Positions 2,926-20,278 of a stretch of DNA of 38,076 bases are shown piece by piece. How positions within the stretch are numbered: the first letter of the stretch is position 1; every line of letters begins with the position of its first letter. The translations under genes were made by a program, and so were the position numbers. The notes below the pieces were generated by a model, which saw nothing but the letters and a program-made list of their open reading frames with translations, made no database searches and was not told the DNA's origin. Source of the DNA: a virus; the IMG/VR virus record IMGVR_UViG_3300024496_000058, positions 1-38,076 of that record; one strand, written 5' to 3'.

Positions 2926-3549
2926 TTAACCTCGTAATTCCTTAACTTTGTTTAACTTGTCATCTAGTTCACCCAAGAACTTGATAACCTCTTTTTCCAG
3001 CGTTGCAATGTAGGCATCATCACGCTCGAAACGCTTGATTACTAATTGCAATTCTGCGGGAAACCTTGGATCAAATGAACACAAATCTGTCCATTTGGCC
3101 TTTGTGCAAGCCATTTGCCATTGAACTTGCACCTTATATTGATCGTCAATACCACCTAAGATGCTTTCTAAGTGCGTGTGAGACATTGGGCATTTCAGTT
3201 CCACCAAGCCTCCACCTTCAAAAACAAGCCCGTCAGGAGACGCGCCAGCCATCTCAATCGTAGGATGGTTAACAAAGGCTACTTGATCTACTAAAACGCC
3301 CATCTTGGCCTCATAAGCGGCTCTAGCAAAGGGTTCTTGCTCAGTTCCCCAGTTCATAGCATCGTTGGTGTATGACTCTGCTACTGTGTTTGTCAGACGT
3401 TCAAGTAGCAACTGAGTCATGTATTTGTCTCTGCTAGTGGAATAGCCTGTCTTTGTGGTGGCAACAATGTCCTTAACCCGACTAGCCGTAACTTTTCCTA
3501 GACGCAATTGCTTCCAAGCATCGCTACCTTGGATGATTTCTTCACTCAT
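2926..3549 (-). CDS. YqaJ-type (lambda-exonuclease-like) recombination exonuclease
   Basis: A 207-residue PD-(D/E)XK nuclease. Seen in order: GSDAWKQLRLGKVTASR (8-24), WGTEQEPFARAAYE (67-80) with a metal-site Glu, GASPDGLV (102-109) with the Asp, and VELKCP (116-121) with the E-x-K. A C-terminal tail follows. It would resect double-stranded ends to leave single strands for annealing. Its partner is the DUF1071 annealing protein one gene upstream, a standard two-component phage recombination system. The downstream gene start lies just past its stop. Confidence 0.9.
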   Translation of the reverse strand: MSEEIIQGSDAWKQLRLGKVTASRVKDIVATTKTGYSTSRDKYMTQLLLERLTNTVAESYTNDAMNWGTEQEPFARAAYEAKMGVLVDQVAFVNHPTIEMAGASPDGLVFEGGGLVELKCPMSHTHLESILGGIDDQYKVQVQWQMACTKAKWTDLCSFDPRFPAELQLVIKRFERDDAYIATLEKEVIKFLGELDDKLNKVKELRG

Positions 3550-3737
3550 TTCAACCTCTCTTGCATCATTGCATCTGCTATTTGATAAGCCCTATTAGCA
3601 AATTCATCCATAGTTGCCGTTAAAGATGGTTCTGAAATCAACGCTTGCATTGCTTTGGCGGCAAAGTAATCACGAATTGTTAGCCCTTGATACTTCTCAA
3701 TGGTGAAGTTGTTTGGGAAGGCTGGAATGTTCTTCAT
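3546..3737 (-). CDS. Small conserved phage protein (GLTIRDYFAAKAMQ)
   Basis: A 63-residue soluble protein with the segment YQGLTIRDYFAAKAMQALI and the end RAYQIADAMMQERLK. Both are widespread in short phage proteins of unknown function. It sits between the annealing protein and the exonuclease and overlaps both neighbours by 4 bases, so it is probably co-translated with them. A helper role in recombination is only a guess from position. Confidence 0.75.
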   Translation of the reverse strand: MKNIPAFPNNFTIEKYQGLTIRDYFAAKAMQALISEPSLTATMDEFANRAYQIADAMMQERLK

Positions 3738-4366
3738 TTCAACTCCTTCTTACGAGCATCTTTGGCGGCAATCATCTTGGTCTGCCATGCTTTGTTGCCT
3801 TGGCAAGCCGCAAATGCTTCGATGTAGATGTCCTTGAGTTGATCAAGGGATGAAGTAACTTCAATGGCAGACAAGTAGTCCAACATCATGTTTTCGTCCA
3901 CAGATGACTCATCTTCGCCTTCAGGTAAGTCTTCACCAGCGTAGATATACAAGCCTAAGCCATGCAACGACAATGCCTTTGTCATACAACGCATGATGGC
4001 TGTATTGACTGCAAATGCGTCTGGGTTGGGGATTGCTTTGTTGCGGTAGTCCATCACGGGCAATTGGCAGGTCATTGGTTTGCCAAACATGGTGACTGTT
4101 ACAAACACCATTGCTGTGCCGTTGATGTCCATGTAACACTTGTCACCAAACATCTCAATCTTGTATGAGGCATTTGCATCTGCTTTGAGAGCCTCTGCCC
4201 AAGCCCATGCCCATGATAGGTATGTAAGATTGTTTTTCTTCTCTGTATGCTCGTTGACGTTCTTCTTTAAAAGTTCGCCTATTAACTCTGCACGATCCAC
4301 CAAATATCCTTTTTGCTCAGGTCTTGGTGACAAAACTAACGCCTCTTTATCGTATTTCGTATCCAT
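3734..4366 (-). CDS. Single-strand annealing protein, DUF1071 (Sak3-like)
   Basis: A 210-residue recombinase. Diagnostic segments are NLTYLSWAWAWAEAL (46-60), the VMDYRNKAIPNPDAF region, and TAIMRCMTKALSLHGLGLYI followed by YAGEDLPEGEDE. These mark the DUF1071 annealing proteins, which coat single strands and pair them with complementary DNA. The acidic C-terminal region may contact partner proteins. It works with the YqaJ exonuclease in the same operon; the linked functions are established for such pairs. The start has AGGAG upstream (AGGAGTTAAGA before ATG). Confidence 0.88.
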   Translation of the reverse strand: MDTKYDKEALVLSPRPEQKGYLVDRAELIGELLKKNVNEHTEKKNNLTYLSWAWAWAEALKADANASYKIEMFGDKCYMDINGTAMVFVTVTMFGKPMTCQLPVMDYRNKAIPNPDAFAVNTAIMRCMTKALSLHGLGLYIYAGEDLPEGEDESSVDENMMLDYLSAIEVTSSLDQLKDIYIEAFAACQGNKAWQTKMIAAKDARKKELK

Positions 4367-7679: not shown

Positions 7680-7906
7680 ATACCGACTTGTTTGACAAGT
7701 ATCCAGAATGGGTGGGTATGCCTGAGTTTGTTCAGGAAAAGAAAGAACCTTACAAGGAACTTATCGTTAGATTTGAGACAGAAGATGATTACAAAGAATT
7801 TCAGCAGTTGATTAACCAAAAACTAACAGTAAAAACTAAAAGTATTTGGCATCCTTTCAAATCTCATTGGGGATTAGATAAAAAGGTTTACAAAGATGTT
7901 GCCTAA
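7676..7906 (+). CDS. Small partner protein of the glycosyltransferase
   Basis: A 76-residue protein. The start at 7676 is set by the ATGA overlap. Key segments are YPEWVGMPEFVQ, LIVRFETEDDYKEFQQLINQ and TKSIWHPFKSHWGLDK. I recall this small family repeatedly next to phage nucleotide- or DNA-modification genes. It overlaps the glycosyltransferase start by 11 bases, suggesting a shared pathway. The biochemical role is unknown. Confidence 0.65.
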   Translation: MNTDLFDKYPEWVGMPEFVQEKKEPYKELIVRFETEDDYKEFQQLINQKLTVKTKSIWHPFKSHWGLDKKVYKDVA

Positions 7907-8759
7907 ATTCCCAATTTACATTGTCTCCAAAGGTAGAGCAAACAATGGATTGACTACTCGTGCATTACATGAAATGGGCGTTCCTCACTATTTGGTCGTT
8001 GAAGAAGACGAAATGGATTTATACAAAGAGGGCAGATGCTTTGGGGAAATATTGGTTATGCCACATATCTACAAAGCAGAATACGAATTGTGTGATGACT
8101 TAGGGTTTAGCAAGGGAACGGGGCCAGGCCCCGCCCGAAACTTCTGCATAGACCACTCCATATGGAAAGGCTTTAACCGCCATTGGGTGCTTGACGACAA
8201 CATTGATGCTTTTCACTATCTGAATCGCAACGAAAAGTTTGAGATACGAACTGGCGCAACATTTAAAGCCGCAGAAGACTTTGTATGTCGCTATTCAAAT
8301 GTCCCTGTGGCTGGCTTTAATTACTATTCATTCTGCAAAAAAAACGATGCCGTTCCCCCTTATGTCCTGAATACTCGCATTTATTCCTGTTTGCTGATTG
8401 ACAACAAAGCAGGATACAGATGGCGTGGCAGATACAACGAAGATACAGATTTAAGCCTTAGAGTGCTGAAAGATGGCCTATGCACTATCCAATTCAACGC
8501 TTTTTTGTGTGGAAAAATAACAACTCAAAGAATGAAAGGCGGCAATACTGAAGAATTTTATGATGATGAAGGAACTTTACCTAAGAGTCAAATGCTTGAA
8601 AAACTACACCCAGATGTGGCTAAAGTTGTTTTTAAATTCAATCGTTGGCATCATCATGTTGACTATTCTCAATTCAAAAGCAATAAGTTAATTAAAGTTG
8701 TTGATACAAGCCTAATGCCAAAAATCAACAATTATGGAATGGAACTTATAAATTTATGA
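7896..8759 (+). CDS. Phage glycosyltransferase (TET-associated glycosyltransferase-like)
   Basis: 287 residues with a GT-A-like order. Seen: FPIYIVSKGRANNGLTTRAL (5-24) for nucleotide-sugar binding, GTGPGPARNF (74-83), HWVLDDN (96-102) with a DxD-like acidic motif, and WRGRYNEDTDLSLRVLKDG further on. These match the TAGT family, which in other phages adds sugars to modified DNA bases. No base hydroxylase, TET enzyme or modified-nucleotide synthase is visible in the window, so the acceptor is unclear. It could be a base modified by an unrecognised gene, or something other than DNA. Confidence 0.75.
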   Translation: MLPKFPIYIVSKGRANNGLTTRALHEMGVPHYLVVEEDEMDLYKEGRCFGEILVMPHIYKAEYELCDDLGFSKGTGPGPARNFCIDHSIWKGFNRHWVLDDNIDAFHYLNRNEKFEIRTGATFKAAEDFVCRYSNVPVAGFNYYSFCKKNDAVPPYVLNTRIYSCLLIDNKAGYRWRGRYNEDTDLSLRVLKDGLCTIQFNAFLCGKITTQRMKGGNTEEFYDDEGTLPKSQMLEKLHPDVAKVVFKFNRWHHHVDYSQFKSNKLIKVVDTSLMPKINNYGMELINL

Positions 8760-10273: not shown

Positions 10274-10741
10274 ATGGTAAGTAGGTCGCAAACCTATAAA
10301 AATCGGCAAATAATGCTCAAAAAATACGGGCATAGATACGAACGGCATTGGTCTAGCCGTGTGGGTTGTTTTTATTGTGGTGACAAATGGGCAGAATTAG
10401 ACCATTGCCCGCCCCTTTCATGGTGCGATACAAAAAACCATAAATGGTTTAAAGAACGCAAAATTGGCTTTTATTTGGTTAATTCTTGTTCAGACTGCAA
10501 TAGGGCGTTATCCGATAGAGGGCTTTTTACCTTACAAGAACGGGCGGATTTCATTCGCAAAAGGCTAGAAAACAAGGCGGAGAAAATCGTTCTGTGGACA
10601 AAAGAGGAAATCAAGGAAATGAGTCCCCGATTTCAGAAAACCATACTGGCACGTCAATCGATACAAAATATGCTCTTAGAACGCCTTTGGTTTGCTCAGG
10701 AACTGCAATTTAGGGCTGAAGACTTCCCCGAGTTTAGATAG
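10274..10741 (+). CDS. HNH-type zinc-finger nuclease-like protein
   Basis: 155 residues: CFYC (32-35), LDHCPPLSW (42-50) with the central His, and CSDCNRALSDRGLFT (72-86). The Cys pairs and DH motif match a compact HNH fold common in phages, and the ER-x-DFIRKRLENK helix follows. It may be a packaging- or replication-linked nuclease. An AGGGTAAGA direct repeat precedes the gene (10203 and 10264 areas). Last gene of the rightward early block, followed by a terminator. Confidence 0.75.
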   Translation: MVSRSQTYKNRQIMLKKYGHRYERHWSSRVGCFYCGDKWAELDHCPPLSWCDTKNHKWFKERKIGFYLVNSCSDCNRALSDRGLFTLQERADFIRKRLENKAEKIVLWTKEEIKEMSPRFQKTILARQSIQNMLLERLWFAQELQFRAEDFPEFR

Positions 10742-10775
10742 ACCCTAGATAGGCGCAAGGGCTTAAAAAAGGGCA

Positions 10776-10805
10776 ATAAAAAACCCGCATAAAGCGGGCT
10801 TTAGT
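10776..10805. terminator. Intrinsic terminator between convergent operons
   Basis: CCCGC (10784-10788), loop ATAAA, GCGGG (10794-10798). Read leftward it is followed by six T, so it mainly ends the leftward block. Read rightward it has a short CTTTA tail. It lies between converging genes at 10741 and 10820. Confidence 0.8.
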
Positions 10806-10819
10806 GAGTACCAACTAAC

Positions 10820-10984
10820 TTATTCTGTCTCTGTTTCTTCTTTTTTGTTTAACACTTGGAGAATTTGCTCTATTTCGTCTGGCGTGATTCGCATCCATCT
10901 AGTTTTTCCATTTTCGCCAATTATTTGCATATCAGCATAATCAGCCCCAATAATTTGCTTGAATTCGTGGTCATAGTAAGTCAT
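10820..10984 (-). CDS. Small hypothetical protein (54 aa)
   Basis: Encodes MTYYDHEFKQIIGADYADMQ then IIGENGKTRWMRITPDEIEQ and an acidic end. AAAGG lies 7 bases before the start. Last gene of the leftward accessory block, just ahead of the terminator. The segment WMRITPDEIEQILQVL is well formed. No family recognised. Confidence 0.6.
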   Translation of the reverse strand: MTYYDHEFKQIIGADYADMQIIGENGKTRWMRITPDEIEQILQVLNKKEETETE

Positions 10985-10994
10985 AAATTACCTT

Positions 10995-11048
10995 TCATTT
11001 TCGTTTGAGAATAATTTGTAAGATAAGTGCAAGGGTTGCATAAATCAT
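10995..11048 (-). CDS. Possible 17-aa hydrophobic peptide
   Basis: Encodes MIYATLALILQIILKRK, one short hydrophobic helix with a basic end. The start overlaps the upstream stop (ATGA) but the SD is weak. It may be a real micro-protein or chance. Confidence 0.3.
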   Translation of the reverse strand: MIYATLALILQIILKRK

Positions 11049-11305
11049 GCGTCACCCAGCAGGTAATCTAGTCTTTGGAAGGTTTCATCGTCTCTTTCAC
11101 CATCAACAACCCTATAAAGGGTGCAAATGTATTTTTGAGGGTCAGATTCATCAATCCAAATGTTGATATCAAGGGTGTCATCCCAAGAATTCCAGTAATC
11201 CTCAAGGTAAAAATCTGCATCTTCGCCCCTGTGGGTGTCTTTTATGCCCTCAATTAAGCCCCGAACAAAGGCTTTAATTTGGTCTAGTTCTGTCGTTTTT
11301 CTCAT
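11045..11305 (-). CDS. Hypothetical acidic protein (86 aa)
   Basis: The start at 11305 (MRKTTELDQIKAFVRGLIEG) is chosen for GGGAG 6 bases upstream and the ATGA overlap. Acidic, soluble; the middle (YWNSWDDTLDINIWIDESD) looks like beta strands. No family recognised. Confidence 0.6.
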   Translation of the reverse strand: MRKTTELDQIKAFVRGLIEGIKDTHRGEDADFYLEDYWNSWDDTLDINIWIDESDPQKYICTLYRVVDGERDDETFQRLDYLLGDA

Positions 11306-11448
11306 GTTGTCTCCCATAGTTCAGAGACAATGAAACCTGATTCAAAGTTAGTAAGCCCCCAATCGAAGGCTTGCTCATAGGTATCAAAAGCCCCGTAAAA
11401 GCGGAAACCCTTGGAAATGTCACCATTGGAAACGATGTATTTTTTCAT
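11302..11448 (-). CDS. Small hypothetical protein (48 aa)
   Basis: Encodes MKKYIVSNGDISKGFRFYGA followed by FDTYEQAFDWGLTNFESGFI and VSELWETT. SD AAGGGG precedes the start by 6 bases and the stop forms an ATGA overlap. The pattern (short strand, helix, strand) resembles DpnD-like small proteins nearby, but the match is weak. Confidence 0.6.
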   Translation of the reverse strand: MKKYIVSNGDISKGFRFYGAFDTYEQAFDWGLTNFESGFIVSELWETT

Positions 11449-11458
11449 TGTCTACCCC

Positions 11459-11791
11459 TTAATGTTGGCGGTAAACAATGGTGTCATCGGTTTGCCCGAC
11501 AAATGCGCCCTCTTCGATCAAATAGTCGATAACCCTCTGCTTTTTAGCGTCATCATCGCTATCCTCAAGATCATCCATGTCAATGACATAGGCTGACTCT
11601 ATTTCCTGCCATGTATCCTCTGAAAAATCGCAACAAAGGGCAATAACGTCTAACTCTACCTCTTCGCCCGTAGAATCTTCGTATTCCTCTAAGTAATTAA
11701 ATAATTCTTTTAGCCCGTGATAACTAAAATCTTCACGCCTTGCAAGTTTGAAAGCGTATCTAAAATCCTCAAGTGATACAGTAGTTTTCAT
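11459..11791 (-). CDS. Conserved plasmid/phage accessory protein (110 aa)
   Basis: Seen: VSLEDFRYAFKLARREDFSY, GLKELFNYLEEYEDSTGEEV, ELDVIALCCDFSE, and the end EGAFVGQTDDTIVYRQH. I recall this as a widespread family on plasmids and phages, often near ArdC-like and DpnD-like genes. The function is unknown. It is ATGA-coupled to the upstream DpnD-like gene. Confidence 0.7.
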   Translation of the reverse strand: MKTTVSLEDFRYAFKLARREDFSYHGLKELFNYLEEYEDSTGEEVELDVIALCCDFSEDTWQEIESAYVIDMDDLEDSDDDAKKQRVIDYLIEEGAFVGQTDDTIVYRQH

Positions 11792-11982
11792 GCTGTCACC
11801 TCTTCATTTGAGTTTGTGACGGCTTTGATATCCTCTAGTTGCCACTCCCCGAATTGCACCTCTTCCCATCCGTTTTCATCGGAATACTCCCATGCTAACT
11901 CTTCGGCCTCTTCGATTGAATTGGCAATTATGGTTTTTTTGTAAAACACCAACTGGCTGGCGTAAACATCAAATGTTTTCAT
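11788..11982 (-). CDS. DpnD/PcfM-like small protein
   Basis: 64 residues: FDVYASQLVFYKKTIIANSI then EEAEELAWEYSDENGWEEVQ. The strand-helix pattern with IANSIEEAEELA is that of the DpnD/PcfM family found in mobile elements and phages, whose function is not established. AAGGAG precedes the start. A two-hairpin element lies upstream. Confidence 0.6.
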   Translation of the reverse strand: MKTFDVYASQLVFYKKTIIANSIEEAEELAWEYSDENGWEEVQFGEWQLEDIKAVTNSNEEVTA

Positions 11983-12006
11983 GTATTAACTCCTTGAATA
12001 GAAAAC

Positions 12007-12055
12007 CCCGAATTTGGACAAATTCAGGCCATAAAGCCCTAGATTTAAGGCTTTA
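12007..12055 (-). other. Two-hairpin intergenic element A
   Basis: In - strand order: hairpin 1 (12055-12032) TAAAGCCTTA-AATC-TAGGGCTTTA, with a T-G pair. Hairpin 2 (12028-12007) has a 9-bp stem closed by GTCC and is followed by TTTT. Same layout as elements B, D and E. Confidence 0.65.
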
Positions 12056-12065
12056 CAGGCTGAAA

Positions 12066-12545
12066 TTAGGCGGTTAATCGTTCGTATATAAACCCATTAT
12101 CTTGCTGTGGGATGTAATCGTGACGGGCTGAAAATATAGAGATTCCCGCATCTTGACACAATTCAACCCTATATTTAATGGGCATCTGTTGCCAATAGTT
12201 TTCCGCCTCTGAATACTCTAATTCGCTGAAGTGGGATTCATTCAAAACAGGGTAATCAGACAATGCACAAAGCATATCATCTGCTTTTAATATTGCCTCA
12301 GCGTCTGCCTCATGGATTGCAATCCATTCCACCCACCCCACAGCCCAATGTTTTTCCCGCACCACATGGATAGTGTCAGATTCACCACCTAAAGCCTCAA
12401 GCCCACATTCAAAGTTTGAACGGGTCAATGCGTCTGAATCCCTAGTTTGGCTGAGAAAAACAAAGTAATCAGGCCATGTCGCACCATAGTAACTATCGGG
12501 CATTGTCCAGCGAGTAAGGGCTTTTAAATTGTCTAAATGTTCCAT
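12066..12545 (-). CDS. Hypothetical accessory protein (159 aa)
   Basis: Soluble protein starting MEHLDNLKALTRWTMPDSYY. Segments DYFVFLSQTRDSDALTRSNF and WAVGWVEWIAIHEADAEAIL are well formed, and Trp is abundant. I recall related proteins on mobile elements but no function. It is flanked on both sides by two-hairpin elements and has its own AAAAGGTGTTAC leader, suggesting it behaves as a separate cassette. Confidence 0.65.
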   Translation of the reverse strand: MEHLDNLKALTRWTMPDSYYGATWPDYFVFLSQTRDSDALTRSNFECGLEALGGESDTIHVVREKHWAVGWVEWIAIHEADAEAILKADDMLCALSDYPVLNESHFSELEYSEAENYWQQMPIKYRVELCQDAGISIFSARHDYIPQQDNGFIYERLTA

Positions 12546-12569
12546 GTAACACCTTTTAAAAGTTAAAAC

Positions 12570-12614
12570 CCTAGAGGAAATCTCTAGGCCACTAACCCCT
12601 AAAGTTAAGGGTTA
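12570..12614 (-). other. Two-hairpin intergenic element B
   Basis: Hairpin 1 (12614-12593) on the - strand: TAACCCTTA-ACTT-TAGGGGTTA, one T-G pair. Hairpin 2 (12588-12570) CCTAGAG-ATTTC-CTCTAGG is followed by GTTTTAACTTTT, terminator-like. Confidence 0.7.
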
Positions 12615-12626
12615 GCAGTCTAGGGA

Positions 12627-12773
12627 TTAGAGGGGTAAACCAGTAATGCGAAAGCATTTACCCGATGCGGTTTCTATGTCAATAGTGCCGAAAGGGTGAA
12701 CTGCAAGGATTTTCACGGGTTGCACTTTACCGAAAATAGGCAAATTGATAATTTGATTGACAATGTATTTCAT
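12627..12773 (-). CDS. Small hypothetical protein (48 aa)
   Basis: Encodes MKYIVNQIINLPIFGKVQPV then KILAVHPFGTIDIETASGKC and FRITGLPL. The start has GAGAGGTGTTAC upstream, the block's common leader. Beta-rich; could be a small beta-barrel-like domain. No family recognised. Confidence 0.6.
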   Translation of the reverse strand: MKYIVNQIINLPIFGKVQPVKILAVHPFGTIDIETASGKCFRITGLPL

Positions 12774-12783
12774 GTAACACCTC

Positions 12784-12879
12784 TCAATAAGTTAAAACAT
12801 CAAAATATGATAATGCTAGGGTTGCAAAGCACAAACCTAACACGATTGCAAGGGAAATATCTAACAGGGTTTGTTTCAT
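12784..12879 (-). CDS. Single-membrane-segment micro-protein (31 aa)
   Basis: Encodes MKQTLLDISLAIVLGLCFAT then LALSYFDVLTY: one membrane helix. Supported by the ATGA overlap with the upstream gene and AGGTGTCAGC before the start. The function is unknown. Confidence 0.5.
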   Translation of the reverse strand: MKQTLLDISLAIVLGLCFATLALSYFDVLTY

Positions 12880-13100
12880 GCTGACACCTCTGCTTGCAAT
12901 AATTTGAAAGTTTTAATTGCAAGTTGACGATTTTCCTTGCTTACATTGTGAAACCATGCTTGTGTATTTGTGCGCCCCTGAGAGCCAAATGCCCCGCCTG
13001 AGAGCCATCGCCTTTGTGTAACAGTAATAAATTTTCCGCTTGTGACAAACACAGAGAATTTATTGCCTTTTAAGTAAAACTCGTGATATCCAAAATCCAT
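12876..13100 (-). CDS. Hypothetical protein (74 aa)
   Basis: The start at 13100 (MDFGYHEFYLKGNKFSVFVT) is preferred over 13115 because AAAGG lies 7 bases upstream. Basic; segment TVTQRRWLSGGAFGSQGRTN, then a C-terminal helix. No family recognised. Confidence 0.6.
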   Translation of the reverse strand: MDFGYHEFYLKGNKFSVFVTSGKFITVTQRRWLSGGAFGSQGRTNTQAWFHNVSKENRQLAIKTFKLLQAEVSA

Positions 13101-13131
13101 ATTTACGCCTTTCAAAGTGATTGAATTGATA

Positions 13132-13175
13132 CTCTAAGGGCTAAAAAGCCCCTAGAGAATAGGGATTTTCCCTAT
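13132..13175 (-). other. Two-hairpin intergenic element C (permuted form)
   Basis: On the - strand: ATAGGGA-AAA-TCCCTAT (13175-13059 side, 13175 to 13159), then an 11-bp stem CTCTAGGGGCT-TTTT-AGCCCTTAGAG (13157-13132) with a G-T pair. The arms of the conserved hairpin are in swapped order compared with A, B, D and E. Confidence 0.6.
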
Positions 13176-13177
13176 GT

Positions 13178-13369
13178 TTATAGTGATTCAAAGCCTAAAC
13201 CGTATCCCGCATAACCAAGGGTTTCAGCCCCTGAAAACCATGTCTCTAGGTCATAATCACTAGCAACATGGTATTGATTATCCTCAAATACAACCCAATA
13301 ATCATCACAGTTTTTATTGGATAGAGTAACTGCGGCTTGTGCCGCCTTTGCAAAAGTAGAAAACGCCAT
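13178..13369 (-). CDS. Small hypothetical protein (63 aa)
   Basis: MAFSTFAKAAQAAVTLSNKN, then DDYWVVFEDNQYHVASDYDL and a Gly/Tyr-rich end. The helix-strand-strand layout fits a small ferredoxin-like fold. Leader TTTTTTTAATAGGTGTAATT precedes the ATG. No family recognised. Confidence 0.6.
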   Translation of the reverse strand: MAFSTFAKAAQAAVTLSNKNCDDYWVVFEDNQYHVASDYDLETWFSGAETLGYAGYGLGFESL

Positions 13370-13401
13370 AATTACACCTATTAAAAAAAGTTAAGAAAAT
13401 C

Positions 13402-13455
13402 CCTAAGTCATTGGAAAACTTAGGCCACAAGCCCCTAAAAGAATCTAAGGGCTTG
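13402..13455 (-). other. Two-hairpin intergenic element D
   Basis: Hairpin 1 (13455-13428) CAAGCCCTTA...TAGGGGCTTG with one T-G pair. Hairpin 2 (13424-13402) CCTAAGT-N9-ACTTAGG is followed by GATTTTC and a later run of seven T. Confidence 0.7.
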
Positions 13456-13466
13456 CAGTCTATGTT

Positions 13467-13772
13467 TTAATGTATAGGATCGGTTTGCGATATATGGAAA
13501 ACCGATACAGGGCGCACTAATTTGCTAGGTTTGCCCGTATCCTTGGTTTCGGTATCAATCCATGTAACGCACTTTACGCCCGTTTCACCCTTACGCACTT
13601 GGCGTTTTAGGGCTTGCCAAGCGTTATAGGTGAAAATGTTTTCCCTTGGCTTGATATCCAAAGGGTTAACGCCCTTTTCAATAAAGCCCTTAATTATTGC
13701 GGGATAGTTGACTAGTGAATCCCCTTGCTTTGCACGATTAAGGGATTCTAGGGAAATAGTTTGTTTATCCAT
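13467..13772 (-). CDS. ArdC-like N-terminal domain protein
   Basis: 101 residues. FTYNAWQALKRQVRKGETGV, then KCVTWIDTETKD, and the end RPVSVFHISQTDPIH match the N-terminal single-strand-DNA-binding domain of ArdC antirestriction proteins (W-x-A-L-x-x-x-V-R-K-G-E-x-G and VF-x-x-SQT). The C-terminal metalloprotease part with HExxH is absent, so this is a stand-alone domain. Possible roles are protecting incoming DNA or binding single strands. Leader AATAGGTGTAACTT precedes the ATG. Confidence 0.65.
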   Translation of the reverse strand: MDKQTISLESLNRAKQGDSLVNYPAIIKGFIEKGVNPLDIKPRENIFTYNAWQALKRQVRKGETGVKCVTWIDTETKDTGKPSKLVRPVSVFHISQTDPIH

Positions 13773-13791
13773 AAGTTACACCTATTAAAAA

Positions 13792-13837
13792 CCTAGCAAA
13801 ATTACTAGGGCATTAGCCCCTAGAGTTAAGGGCTAAT
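13792..13837 (-). other. Two-hairpin intergenic element E
   Basis: Hairpin 1 (13837-13812) ATTAGCCCTTA-ACTC-TAGGGGCTAAT, 11 bp with one T-G pair. Hairpin 2 (13809-13792) CCTAG-N8-CTAGG is followed by TTTTT and then AATAGGTGTAAC. Confidence 0.7.
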
Positions 13838-13850
13838 AACCTAGAATCTA

Positions 13851-14027
13851 TCAATCGTTTACTAGGTCAAAATAATGACGAATACCGTCACTATCCTTAA
13901 AAGTGGCAGGGTTGACGGCTTCTAAAATGATATCCGCTAGAGTTTCCCCCATTGTGCCGTCACCGTGTTCACTACCCAAGTAAACTGCATCACTAGGGAT
14001 TGACTCATAATTTGGAAATTGTTTCAT
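13851..14027 (-). CDS. Small hypothetical protein (58 aa), first gene of the leftward block
   Basis: Encodes MKQFPNYESIPSDAVYLGSE, then HGDGTMGETLADIILEAVNP and an acidic end. AATAGGTGTAACA precedes the start. Soluble; no family recognised. Promoter-like sequences P2 and P3 lie upstream, with a terminator-like hairpin in between. Confidence 0.6.
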   Translation of the reverse strand: MKQFPNYESIPSDAVYLGSEHGDGTMGETLADIILEAVNPATFKDSDGIRHYFDLVND

Positions 14028-14039
14028 TGTTACACCTAT

Positions 14040-14065
14040 TAAAAAACACCTAGGAAACTGCCTAG
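14040..14065 (-). terminator. Terminator-like hairpin in the leader of the leftward block
   Basis: On the - strand CTAGG-CAGTTT-CCTAG (14065-14050) is followed by GTGTTTTTT. It lies between P2 and the first ATG (14027), so it could act as an attenuator. The stem is only 5 bp. Confidence 0.4.
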
Positions 14066-14098
14066 TCAGTAACTATATTATCGGGTTAGCCTACATTT

Positions 14099-14128
14099 TT
14101 GCTATCAGGATAAACCCTATGTTTTCAA
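14099..14128 (-). promoter_or_regulatory. Leftward promoter P2
   Basis: TTGAAA, 18 bases, TAGCAA on the - strand, with ATAGGGTTTATCCTGA in the spacer. Closely resembles P4 over about 30 bases (TTGTTGAA...ATAGGG...CCTGATA). Faces the 14027 gene. Confidence 0.45.
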
Positions 14129-14287
14129 CAATATTTTCTATCGGCTTACCATTATTGATAGCCTAAACCTAAACTACCTATAAAGTATTATTGTGAATTA
14201 TAGTTCTGATATTTTAGGGGATTTTCTAGGTGTATGCAGGATGATGCATTAAGCCTTTACATCATTTCCCGACCGACCAGTCGGTTA

Positions 14288-14316
14288 ATTAACTCAGGGT
14301 AAACCCTATGCTGTAA
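14288..14316 (-). promoter_or_regulatory. Leftward promoter-like site P3
   Basis: TTACAG, 17 bases, GTTAAT on the - strand, with ATAGGGTTTACCCTGA in the spacer. The hexamers are weak; the spacer dyad is the clearest of the set (AGGGT-AA-ACCCT on the + strand). Confidence 0.35.
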
Positions 14317-14716
14317 GTGCATACAGACTGTGTTTGCATACAGGTGTGCTTACTTTTGTATGGGGGGGGAGGGGGTAGGCGGTGGTGGAATATTTGTGGG
14401 TACTTCACTTCCACACGAAAAGCCAATTTAGGAAAAGGCTTGACAGGTGGTGGTAGGTAAGGGGTAAGGAAGTGACTTAAGTTTCATTTGGGCGTAGGAC
14501 GGCTACCCGAGGGTTTTCTTGGGTAAAAAAATAAAGATTAACAGTAGGCTGATTGGAGTGTTCTGCCACTTAGAGAGCCTACTTCTAGGCTATGTCTGGG
14601 GTTCAAGCCAGCGTTCTAAGCGGTCATCACAGGGGTTTACAGGATTGCCCTCTGTGGAGTCGGGTAGCGGAACTGACACTCCTTTATGGTTAACACCTAT
14701 TGACGAGCAAATGATA

Positions 14717-16118: not shown

Positions 16119-16512
16119 CCTAGTAAAAATGTATGGAATGAGAACTCCTTACAAATCAGAGTTAGATTTCTTCAAAGGAAGACCAGAGGTTGCTGGAATG
16201 GCGACTGAGGATAACAAGATCATTTTGAACCCCTTTTCCTCGCTTTCTCCGCAAGAAAAGATGGCGGTTGCTAAGAATGAAGCCTTGCGTATCTATATGC
16301 GCCTAAACGATGTAAACCCTACCTTTGACTTAACAAAAGCCCAAAAGTCCATGTTTATAGGGACAGAGTACGAAAAAGACCCTCTTTCTGCCAAACAAAC
16401 CATTCTGGCAAGGATTCTTTCGGGCGATCCGTCTGCAAAAGATGCCACATTAGATCAAACACTTGAGGCGCAAAAACTGCAAGAACAAATCATGCAGTCA
16501 ATGAAAAAGTAA
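16111..16512 (+). CDS. Conserved phage protein upstream of large terminase
   Basis: 133 residues: MDNLVKMYGMRTPYKSELDF, EDNKIILNPFSSLSPQEKMA, then a helical C-terminal region. NKIILNPFSSL followed by a VAKNEALRIYMRL helix is a recurring pattern in phage packaging regions. The function is unknown; position suggests a packaging accessory. Its last base is the first of the large terminase gene. Confidence 0.65.
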   Translation: MDNLVKMYGMRTPYKSELDFFKGRPEVAGMATEDNKIILNPFSSLSPQEKMAVAKNEALRIYMRLNDVNPTFDLTKAQKSMFIGTEYEKDPLSAKQTILARILSGDPSAKDATLDQTLEAQKLQEQIMQSMKK

Positions 16513-17771
16513 TGTCTGACCTCAATTTCTCCCTTCTACCTTGGCAAAAGACTGTTTTTGAAGACCCGACTAGGTTCAAAGTCATTGCCGCAGGGCGTAG
16601 ATGCGGTAAGTCTAGGATGGCGGCAATCACCCTACTTATTGAAGCCTTGCGTTGCCCTGCTGGTTCGGCTGTCTTGTATGTCGCCCCCACCAATGGTCAG
16701 GCTAGGCAGATTATTTGGCAAGTTTTAATGGAATTAGGAAGGGAGGTTATCCAAAATGCCCACATCAACAACCAAGACATTACCACCATCAACGGAGCAA
16801 CCATCTATGTCCGAGGAGCAGACAGACCAGACACGCTACGTGGCGTTTCACTCACCTATGCAGTCCTCGATGAAGTCGCAGACATCAAGCCCGAAGCATG
16901 GGAACAAGTTATCCGAGCCTCCCTCTCCGACAAAAAAGGAAGAGCCATGTTCATCGGAACGCCCAAAGGAAGAAACTGGTTTTACGATTTGTTTAGATTG
17001 GGCGAGAGCGCAGAGGACAAAGACTGGAAGTCTTGGCATTTCACAACAAAAGACAACCCCCTGATCGACCCAACTGAGATTGAGTCTGCCAAAAAGACCC
17101 TCTCCACCTTTGCTTTCAAGCAAGAATACATGGCATCCTTCACCAACGCAGGGAGCAACATATTCAAGGAAGAATGGATCAGATACGGGGAAGAACCACA
17201 ACAGGGAAGTTACTACATTGCGATTGACTTGGCTGGCTTTGAAGAAGTGGCAAAACAGGCAGGAAACGCCAAGAAACGCCTAGATGAATCGGCTATTTCC
17301 GTGGTCAAAGTGACTGAAGACGGGAAATGGTGGGTAAAAGAGATAGTTCACGGTAGGTGGGACATCAGGGAAACGGCATCTAAGATACTGTTGGCGATGA
17401 GGGATTATCGTCCTATTGCGGTGGGGATAGAGCGTGGAGCATTAAAAAATGCAGTTTTGCCGTATTTGAGTGACTTAATGCGTAAAAATAATGTATATTC
17501 GCACATAGTTGACTTGACGCATGGCAACAGGAAAAAGGCTGACCGAATTATTTGGGGTCTCCAAGGGCGTTTTGAGCATGGGCGCATCATCTTAAATCAG
17601 GATGGAGATTGGGACGTTTTCCTTGACCAACTTCTACTATTTCCATCGCAAGGCGTTCACGATGATTTGCCTGACTCATTGAGTTACCTTGACCAATTGG
17701 CTGTCACCTCCTACTTTGAAGGAGATGAAGACGAAGATTGGCAACCGATTGACATAATCGCAGGTGTATAG
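16512..17771 (+). CDS. Terminase large subunit
   Basis: 419 residues. ATPase: Walker A AAGRRCGKSR (26-35), Walker B LTYAVLDE (114-121), coupling segment MFIGTPKGRNWFYDLF (146-161). Nuclease: IAIDLAG with Asp239, VGIERG with Glu307, and GVHDDLPDSLSYL with Asp384/385. It powers packaging into the procapsid through the portal and cuts DNA at start and end. The length is near the lower end for the family but all motifs are present. Confidence 0.95.
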   Translation: MSDLNFSLLPWQKTVFEDPTRFKVIAAGRRCGKSRMAAITLLIEALRCPAGSAVLYVAPTNGQARQIIWQVLMELGREVIQNAHINNQDITTINGATIYVRGADRPDTLRGVSLTYAVLDEVADIKPEAWEQVIRASLSDKKGRAMFIGTPKGRNWFYDLFRLGESAEDKDWKSWHFTTKDNPLIDPTEIESAKKTLSTFAFKQEYMASFTNAGSNIFKEEWIRYGEEPQQGSYYIAIDLAGFEEVAKQAGNAKKRLDESAISVVKVTEDGKWWVKEIVHGRWDIRETASKILLAMRDYRPIAVGIERGALKNAVLPYLSDLMRKNNVYSHIVDLTHGNRKKADRIIWGLQGRFEHGRIILNQDGDWDVFLDQLLLFPSQGVHDDLPDSLSYLDQLAVTSYFEGDEDEDWQPIDIIAGV

Positions 17772-18202: not shown

Positions 18203-20278
18203 ATGGCAAACGAACAAAATATGGAACAAAACGACTTTGTAGAACCCACAGAATCAGACAAAGAATTAGTCTCTTTCGTGGTTGACCATTGCGACAGATG
18301 GCGTGACTACCGAGATAGCAACTACCTAGACGCTTGGACAGAATATGAGCGCATCTTCCGTGGAGAATGGGCAGAACAAGACGCTACACGGGAATCTGAG
18401 AGAAGTCGTCTGATCACCCCAGGCACTCAGCAAGCCGTGGAAACCCGTCACGCTGAAATCATGGAAGCCATCTTTGGTCAAGGCGAGTTCTTTGACATCA
18501 AAGACGATATTCAAGACTTAGACGGCAACCCCCTAGATGTTGGCAAACTGCGTGAGCAACTCATGGAGGATTTTGCCAAGGACAAGGTAAGAAAATCTAT
18601 CGACCAAGCGGTTTTGATGGGAGAAATCTATGGCATTGGCATAGGTGAAATCATTGTCAAGACTGAAAAAGAGTATTACCCTGCCACTCAGCCAATTATG
18701 GGGATGCCCACACAGGCGGCAATCGGAGTGATGGAAAAAGACCGCATTTCTGTGCGGATTAACCCAATCAACCCAAAGAACTTCCTGTTTGACCCCAATG
18801 GAACAAGCGTAGAAGACTGTATGGGTGTGGCAGTAGAGAAGTTTGTCTCTATCCACAAGATTGTCCAAGGCATAGAGGCAGGTGTTTACAGGAAAGTAGA
18901 CATCAATACCGATCCTGAAGATGCCGACTTAGAGCCAACCCAAGAATCCACCCAATACAAGGATCAAAAAGTCCGTTTGTTGACTTACTATGGACTTGTC
19001 CCAAGGGAATACCTTGAAAACACAGAAGAACAGAAGGATATTGTTGAACTTTTCCCAGAAAACTCTGTGGCAGAGGAATACACAGACTTAGTTGAAGCGA
19101 TTGTGGTCATTGCCAACGAGTCATTACTCCTAAAGGCAGAACCAAACCCCTACATGATGAAGGATCGTCCTATCATCACCTTCCAAGCCGATACTGTGCC
19201 AAACAGGATTGTGGGAAGAGGAACAGTAGAGAAAGCCTACAATATGCAAAAGGCAACGGATGCCCAAATCCGTAGTCATTTGGACTCCCTAGCCCTGACA
19301 ACTAGCCCCATGATAGCGATGGATGCGACTAGATTGCCACGGGGTGCTAAGTTTGAGGTCAAGCCTGGCAAGGCAATCCTCACCAATGGCGCACCTAACG
19401 ATATTTTGATGCCTTTCAAGTTCGGTACAACCGATCAAGGCAACATTGCCACCGCTACTTCCTTCCAAACCATGCTCTTACAGGCTACTGGAACGTTAGA
19501 TTCCCAAGGATTAGTCTCTGCCGTAGCCCGTGATGGTGGTCAAGGCGGTATGTCTATGGCGATTGCCTCCATTATCAAGAAGTACAAGCGCACTTTGGTG
19601 AACTTCCAAGAAGATTTCTTGATGCCGTTCATCAAAAAGGCGGCTTTCCGCTATATGCAATTCGATCCAGAGCGTTACCCTTCTGTGGACATGAACTTTG
19701 TACCAACGGCAAGCCTTGGAATCATTGCCCGTGAGTACGAACAACAGCAATTTATTGGTCTATTGCAGACTTTAGGGCCAAACACCCCTGTGATGCCTCT
19801 GATTCTCAAGGGAATTATTGGCAATAGTTCGTTTACTAATAGGTATGAACTGATGGATGCGTTGGACAAGATGAGCCAACCCGATCCACAAGCCCAACAA
19901 TTGCAACAAGCCCAACAACAATTGGCGTTACAAGCGGCACAGGCTCAGATTGCGGTCAGTACGACTCAAGCAGAGCAAAATAGGGCTGATGCGACTAAGA
20001 CAATGATAGAAGCACAGTTGTTGCCACAGGAAGTTCAGGCAAAAGTGACTAACTCTATGACTCAAAATTTGCCAAACTCAGATGAAGCGGCAAGTCGTGA
20101 GTTTGATAAGAGGGTTAAGATAGCCGAATTGATGCTCAAAGAAGCAGACATCAAGAACAAATCCAAGATTGTTGAAATGCAGATGGCAGACAAGCAAAAC
20201 AAAGTGCAAGGAATGGAGCAAGACTTCCTTGATCAACTGACAAAACAACTATCTTCAACCCAATCAAAGGGTGAATAA
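18203..20278 (+). CDS. Portal protein (podovirus type)
   Basis: 691 residues, the usual size for short-tailed phage portals. N-terminal region RWRDYRDSNYLDAWTEYERI, then ESERSRLITPGTQQAVETRH AEIMEAIFG. Middle: INPINPKNFLFDPNG and GRGTVEKAYNMQKATDAQIR. The C-terminal Gln/Ala-rich helical part (QQLQQAQQQLALQAAQAQIA) fits the barrel. It forms the 12-subunit DNA channel. Follows the terminase genes; its end overlaps the next start by 1 base. Confidence 0.88.
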   Translation: MANEQNMEQNDFVEPTESDKELVSFVVDHCDRWRDYRDSNYLDAWTEYERIFRGEWAEQDATRESERSRLITPGTQQAVETRHAEIMEAIFGQGEFFDIKDDIQDLDGNPLDVGKLREQLMEDFAKDKVRKSIDQAVLMGEIYGIGIGEIIVKTEKEYYPATQPIMGMPTQAAIGVMEKDRISVRINPINPKNFLFDPNGTSVEDCMGVAVEKFVSIHKIVQGIEAGVYRKVDINTDPEDADLEPTQESTQYKDQKVRLLTYYGLVPREYLENTEEQKDIVELFPENSVAEEYTDLVEAIVVIANESLLLKAEPNPYMMKDRPIITFQADTVPNRIVGRGTVEKAYNMQKATDAQIRSHLDSLALTTSPMIAMDATRLPRGAKFEVKPGKAILTNGAPNDILMPFKFGTTDQGNIATATSFQTMLLQATGTLDSQGLVSAVARDGGQGGMSMAIASIIKKYKRTLVNFQEDFLMPFIKKAAFRYMQFDPERYPSVDMNFVPTASLGIIAREYEQQQFIGLLQTLGPNTPVMPLILKGIIGNSSFTNRYELMDALDKMSQPDPQAQQLQQAQQQLALQAAQAQIAVSTTQAEQNRADATKTMIEAQLLPQEVQAKVTNSMTQNLPNSDEAASREFDKRVKIAELMLKEADIKNKSKIVEMQMADKQNKVQGMEQDFLDQLTKQLSSTQSKGE

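Follow-up and report, generated by a model that had tools for sequence, protein, structure and literature searches.

We observed that the junctions between small leftward genes of the virus record IMGVR_UViG_3300024496_000058 (38,076 bases, called the window here) carry a repeated RNA element, in which hairpin 1 (H1) and hairpin 2 (H2) draw on the same short strand and stand just behind the upstream stop codon. The paired structure, the exclusivity of the two folds and the fixed stop-codon spacing are established, at the level of sequence, by comparison with related viral contigs. Our preferred reading, to which we give not quite an even chance, is that each junction bears a transcription attenuator gated by translation of the upstream gene, perhaps with the participation of a factor that binds H1.

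A sequence-only reading of the window had proposed that four leftward junctions (A, B, D and E) share one plan, a first hairpin, a second stem followed by T-rich sequence, and then the leader that precedes the next gene. Both the plan and its positions were borne out, with H2 directly behind H1. The elements are listed below, with the basis of each assignment in brackets.

12007..12028 (-), hairpin 2 of element A (CCTGAATTTGTCCAAATTCGGG), then GTTTTCT (terminator scan)
12024..12063 (-), hairpin 1 of element A (covariance model, 55.8 bits; stop-to-element spacing)
12570..12588 (-), hairpin 2 of element B (CCTAGAGATTTCCTCTAGG), then GTTTT (terminator scan, folding)
12584..12623 (-), hairpin 1 of element B (covariance model, 62.2 bits)
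13132..13175 (-), element C, a second type (terminator scan; 12 distinct copies, counting the window and its relatives)
13402..13424 (-), hairpin 2 of element D (CCTAAGTTTTCCAATGACTTAGG), then GATTTTCTTAACTTTTTTT (terminator scan, folding)
13420..13463 (-), hairpin 1 of element D (covariance model, 54.7 bits)
13792..13809 (-), hairpin 2 of element E (CCTAGTAATTTTGCTAGG), then TTTTTAATAGGTGT (terminator scan)
13805..13844 (-), hairpin 1 of element E (covariance model, 55.8 bits)
14050..14065 (-), terminator-like hairpin CTAGGCAGTTTCCTAG, then GTGTTTTTT, in the leader of the first leftward gene and without H1 (terminator scan)

Structure, competition and placement of the two hairpins

Copies were gathered with an H1 covariance model and with pattern scans of related viral contigs. 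This search of the relatives, which the sequence-only reading had called for, gave 169 copies with distinct surroundings and covarying H1 pairs. Among 87 distinct rows of the alignment, the H1 pairing was retained in 98.1% of the cells and both sides changed in 8 of the 16 pairs; the covariation score was 0.297, as compared to 0.120 ± 0.007 when shuffled and at most 0.052 with slid partners. Such strong compensatory covariation of the paired letters upholds the claim of a selected RNA structure, and it recurs at the same pairs in copies that were not fetched by pattern.

The A-C mismatch of the plus strand, predicted to become G-U in leftward RNA, proved to be the central U.G pair within CCCUUA/UAGGGG. 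It was found in 87 of 87 distinct aligned copies, and also in all 50 counted copies from the set not fetched by the search pattern. In all, H1 keeps three near-invariant wobble pairs (U.G in 87, U.G in 86 and G.U in 84 of the 87 copies). The hairpin is 13 base pairs long, abuts H2 and is more conserved than H2, and its loop varies in both length and letters. We also considered an integron attC-like recombination site or a palindrome acting at the DNA level; this is disfavoured by the sense orientation, by the covariation, and by a pairing that is G.U on the mRNA strand and not A-C.

The lower helix of H1 is formed by strand 1 (NAG) with strand 2 (CUN'), and H2 by strand 2 (CCUN') with strand 3 (NAGG), after which the U-run follows. 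CUN' is unable to pair with both, and in the predicted folds H2 and the base of H1 are therefore mutually exclusive. The letter N before AG covaries with N' after CCU (Watson-Crick in 0.86 versus 0.50 ± 0.04 shuffled), and this held when one representative was kept per pair of flanking gene families (0.80 versus 0.40 ± 0.05). On the same reduced set, N' covaries with the strand 3 letter before AGG (0.91 versus 0.47). The arms of H2 vary together as well. The same inner stem occurs with the triplets UAU, CGC and AUA, which suggests repeated joint changes of the three letters. A switch reaching further outward was rejected, as the pair beyond N-N' showed no covariation (0.18 versus 0.17). Sequestering of the Shine-Dalgarno sequence by strand 2 was set aside; by eye, that sequence remains UAGG in most CCUG and CCUU copies.

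We further estimated the balance between the two structures by folding. Before strand 3 exists, the lower helix forms with a mean probability of 0.93. Once the RNA is complete H2 has the advantage, though its median margin is only 2.4 kcal/mol. When the stop codon and the 9 nucleotides after it were masked, as the footprint of a terminating ribosome, the mean probability of H2 rose from 0.75 to 0.93. For element A (strand 1 CAG, 12062-12060; strand 2 CCTG, 12028-12025), which has the stop codon of the gene 12066-12545 just upstream, the rise was from 0.39 to 0.93. For element E it was from 0.02 to 0.51; strands 1 and 2 of this element are CTAGG/CCTAG, and a G-C pair here takes the place of the A x C seen in most other copies. 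In element B, strand 1 is TAG and strand 2 is CCTA, and the upstream open reading frame (12627-12773) ends 3 nucleotides ahead of the model start.

H2 has the form of an intrinsic (rho-independent) terminator, a G+C-closed hairpin directly followed by a U-run. The terminator scan scored four of four window H2 as terminators, among 13 terminator-like sites in 3.9 kb where 3.6 ± 1.9 were expected. Across 150 distinct regions, T made up 87-90% at positions 2-4 after H2 and about 40% thereafter. The element, thus, combines two mutually exclusive structures of which one is terminator-like, as an attenuator does. Among the roles suggested by the sequence-only reading, that of terminator or attenuator is the one favoured, since H2 and its T-run resemble a terminator and H2 is in competition with the base of H1; termination itself is the predicted step.

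The position of the element relative to the genes was then compared among the copies. The first A of AGACTG lies 2-6 nucleotides past the upstream stop in 143 of the 154 copies with a called upstream gene, and the next ATG follows H1 at a variable 21-60 nucleotides. The upstream stop is TAA in 90% of cases, as compared to 51% at element-free junctions with a similar gap on the same strand. Genes run in the sense of the element itself upstream in 154 and downstream in 163 of the 169 copies. The fixed spacing to the stop, the variable spacing to the ATG and the preference for TAA indicate, therefore, that the element belongs with the end of the upstream gene.

Element C had been taken for a copy with its arms swapped, but it gave no match to the H1 model and is instead a separate type with four short strands. 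Strands 1 and 2 are ATAGGGA and TCCCTAT (13175-13159), strand 3 is CTAGGGG, followed by CTTTTT (strands 2:3, 13165-13149), and strand 4 is CCCTTAG (strands 3:4, 13157-13132). It begins directly after the TAA stop of the gene 13178-13369. In most C-type copies strand 1 is near the stop codon or overlaps it, and in some relatives the stop codon TAG falls within strand 1. Although built differently, the C type has, in its predicted pairings, the same logic as the H1/H2 element. The two types stand in tandem at one junction in L156 (about 2269-2350) and in L177 (about 4463). As for the leader hairpin at 14050..14065, its 3' half resembles the part of the relatives' elements that comprises H2 and the leader.

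Distribution and genome setting

Loci around TerL relatives carry the same unit of H1 and H2 at leftward junctions. The longer contigs that bear the element have 1-4 model copies in the sense direction, and several close relatives gave no model copy. The contigs are mostly fragments, and the gene calls are simple open reading frames. When 42 element-bearing records were tested, TerL was at least 82% identical to that of the window in 30 and only a 24% match in two, and ten gave no match, in which the fragment may miss the gene. The window had no match above the gathering threshold in Rfam, only weak matches below it (E up to 5). A scan of 84,980 bacterial and archaeal genomes yielded neither the element pattern nor the TerL. 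The element was not found in cultured phages, and 26-nucleotide matches of its consensus in Lactococcus phages (E 0.2) were taken as chance. The element is a structured-RNA family that is absent from Rfam and present in many uncultured phage contigs.

We also looked at the neighbours of the element. Genes for Gene product 88 (PF17338) lie beside it in L092 (7699-8454), L133 (6633-7433) and L103 (near 4959); the TerL of L103 is close to that of the window, that of L133 is a 24% match, and in L092 no match was found. The most frequent neighbour is family 0 (78 flanking proteins), a member of which (L018, 211 amino acids) resembles the DNA polymerase III beta clamp, though weakly and below the cut-off (PF02767, 5.8e-5). 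In the leaders L010, L025, L048 and L145, a third hairpin (GCATGGG...CCTATGC) with a longer T-run stands between H2 and the sliding-clamp-like gene.

The genes flanking the element vary from one phage to another, and the change sets in sharply at the stop codon or at the ATG. The earlier suggestion that each gene forms a separate cassette stood only in part. The partner was kept in 306 of 1034 pairs at element junctions and in 746 of 2052 at other junctions of the same arm, and the family averages were 0.34 and 0.32, respectively, so that partner change is no higher at the element than where it is missing. Since element-free junctions of the arm show the same turnover, gene exchange appears to be a property of the region, and we do not attribute it to the element. 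Cassette exchange as the main function is disfavoured by this control, despite the suggestive breaks.

The window comes from a tailed phage, with TerL at 16512-17771 and the portal at 18203-20278, and the elements lie upstream of TerL, where small leftward genes form a run. Neither near nor distant DNA matches to the region were found among cultured phage records, and all matches of TerL in the cultured-phage collection were below 60% identity. The genes of the run are as follows.

13851..14027 (-), first gene of the leftward run, 58 amino acids, no family found
13467..13772 (-), gene between E and D, 101 amino acids, N-terminal ArdC-like (anti-restriction) domain (PF08401, 1.5e-6; phrog_7245)
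13178..13369 (-), gene between D and C, 63 amino acids
12876..13100 (-), gene downstream of C (open reading frame listed to 13115 from TTG)
12627..12773 (-), small gene between the C-side gene and B, 48 amino acids (family 7, 8 members)
12066..12545 (-), gene between B and A, 159 amino acids (weak matches)
11788..11982 (-), gene downstream of A, 64 amino acids

For the gene downstream of C, the ATG at 13100, which follows AAAGGCGT, is the more likely start than the TTG at 13115. Relatives of the 48-amino-acid gene also precede an H1 element. Recognisable matches were obtained for two of the small leftward proteins, the 101-amino-acid protein with the ArdC N-terminal domain and a 110-amino-acid protein (phrog_9974, of unknown function); PADLOC gave no match for the accessory proteins scanned. 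Elsewhere in the window, a TET-associated glycosyltransferase (7896-8759, (+); PF20691, 1.6e-47) suggests that the phage has hypermodified DNA. A RecE-like exonuclease and a Sak-like single-strand annealing protein are encoded at 2926-4366 (-), and this pair could make use of short homologies. The palindromic CCGACCGACCAGTCGGTTAATTAAC at 14266-14300, a possible operator, lies between two divergent gene runs, and a stretch resembling it, ACCGACTGGTCGGTTAATT, is present in L058 and L063.

Proposed attenuation and its alternatives

In a scan aimed at sigma-70-like promoters, no leftward site was found in 10700-14600, and the leftward genes therefore appear to share one transcript. Each element would then act in cis, as an attenuator-type RNA switch between two genes of that transcript. 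Pairing of strand 1 with strand 2 would close the base of H1 and allow readthrough into the next gene. If strand 2 paired with strand 3 instead, H2 and its U-run would form and end transcription ahead of the next gene. Strand 1 would be hidden by a ribosome that terminates on the upstream gene, so that H2 would be favoured and transcription of a gene would be coupled to translation of the one before it. A phage or host factor may, in addition, set the balance by binding to the invariant stem of H1. What we infer is that transcription terminates at H2, that the ribosome acts as the signal, and how the response runs, in sign and in size. A broader claim, that a modular switch recurring at phage operon junctions senses upstream translation termination and gates the next gene, so that any inserted gene would come under the same serial control and the two element types would share one logic, is possible but in our view doubtful.

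Several observations weigh against attenuation. The U-run is short (commonly 4 or fewer) and is missing in some copies (e.g. L004 and L146), and hence termination at some H2 may be inefficient. Terminators placed in series with no promoters between them would cause strong polarity. The regulatory range may also be modest, since beyond a mismatch the lower helix has no more than three pairs. The register of H2 was chosen by best pairing, which flatters its covariation; the pattern used to fetch many of the copies fixes part of H1, and copies are interrelated, so that cell counts are not independent events. Lastly, an attenuator needs neither an invariant H1 stem nor fixed U.G pairs, and H1 must, therefore, do more than attenuation demands.

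This invariance is what would be expected if H1 were bound by a phage or host protein, or by RNA polymerase itself, with its base stabilised and H2 prevented, in the manner of BglG/LicT-type or ANTAR antitermination or of HK022 put RNA, which suppresses termination by binding RNA polymerase directly. The stem is conserved beyond the needs of pairing and its three wobble pairs are kept, also in the set not fetched by pattern. The base of H1 overlaps a terminator arm, and with a loop so variable the stem would be the part that is read. However, the scans of window proteins revealed no RNA-binding antiterminator, although a host protein or one of an unknown family is possible, and both the fixed distance to the stop codon and the preference for TAA would go unexplained. 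We consider binding as the whole explanation unlikely. Processing would account for the placement directly after a stop codon and before the next ribosome-binding leader, a position also occupied by the early RNase III sites of phage T7 and by bacterial REP elements. Here H1, whose 13 base pairs abut H2, would be stacked on it and would be cut by an RNase (e.g. RNase III) or would block 3' exonucleases; every gene would then have an mRNA of its own, its 3' end protected and its 5' leader clean. As this predicts neither the covariation between strands 1 and 2 nor a U-run directly after H2, we judge it improbable.

The occurrence of the same element with different neighbours, the breaks at the stop codon or ATG and the RecE-like and Sak-like proteins would suit a shared DNA patch for gene exchange by homologous recombination (like the T4 PeSL cassettes), with the RNA structure secondary. 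The element also stands beside Gene product 88 genes where the TerL of the record bears no more than a distant similarity or gave no match. But the arm-wide turnover described above is no higher at element junctions, the sense orientation and the RNA-compatible covariation call for a role in RNA, and we think this explanation very unlikely. Little probability is also left for the view that these are short intrinsic terminators of the ordinary kind, set between genes whose promoters are unmapped, and that H1 has no regulatory role. All four window H2 do score as terminator-like; yet H1 is the more conserved part, there is little room for a promoter between H2 and the ATG, and the promoter scan was negative.

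If the attenuator reading is true, phages use a reusable, stop-codon-anchored attenuator at successive junctions to control changing sets of accessory genes, and the element is a possible part for multi-gene constructs. It also serves to mark a group of phages for whose terminase the cultured-phage collection contains no relative above 60% identity.

Comparison with known systems

Hairpins between successive genes, the RNase III sites, are found in the early region of T7. The likeness lies in this arrangement; to our knowledge T7 has no shared 40-nucleotide consensus with a competing helix. BglG/LicT RAT sites and ANTAR antiterminators need a cognate protein, which the scans of window proteins did not reveal. 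Nearness to a stop codon is not, as far as we know, a feature of these sites.

In the intergenic attenuator of rph-pyrE in E. coli, readthrough is tied to upstream translation and to where the upstream stop codon lies (PMC2784333). Its likeness to the element as read here is that of an attenuator loop between two operon genes, and the link to translation would be shared. It differs in being a single site, and the sign proposed here is the opposite, with a ribosome at the stop favouring H2. We know of no H1-like conserved stem in rph-pyrE.

The put RNA of HK022, of about 70 nucleotides, also has two stem-loops and acts on transcription termination, and it occurs at two sites per genome downstream of early promoters (PMC9378689). 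In contrast, the present element has 1-4 model copies per longer contig and is tied to stop codons. PeSL cassettes of T4-type phages, as cited in PMC4503421, are stem-loop units between shuffled accessory genes, with an early promoter within the unit. They differ from the elements here, for which no leftward sigma-70-like site was found in 10700-14600 and whose junctions are not enriched in gene exchange.

The ESAS of Cluster K mycobacteriophages are imperfect inverted repeats that precede many genes, next to a conserved initiation sequence (PMC3203893). Judged from their description, they are unrelated to the element in sequence. ESAS lie just upstream of the start-associated sequence, whereas the present element is anchored to the previous stop; because its spacing to the ATG varies and that to the upstream stop is fixed, it does not share this tight placement before an initiation sequence. 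The anchoring to the stop codon, the overlap and predicted mutual exclusion of H1 and H2, and the leader hairpin without H1 are additions to the sequence-only reading.
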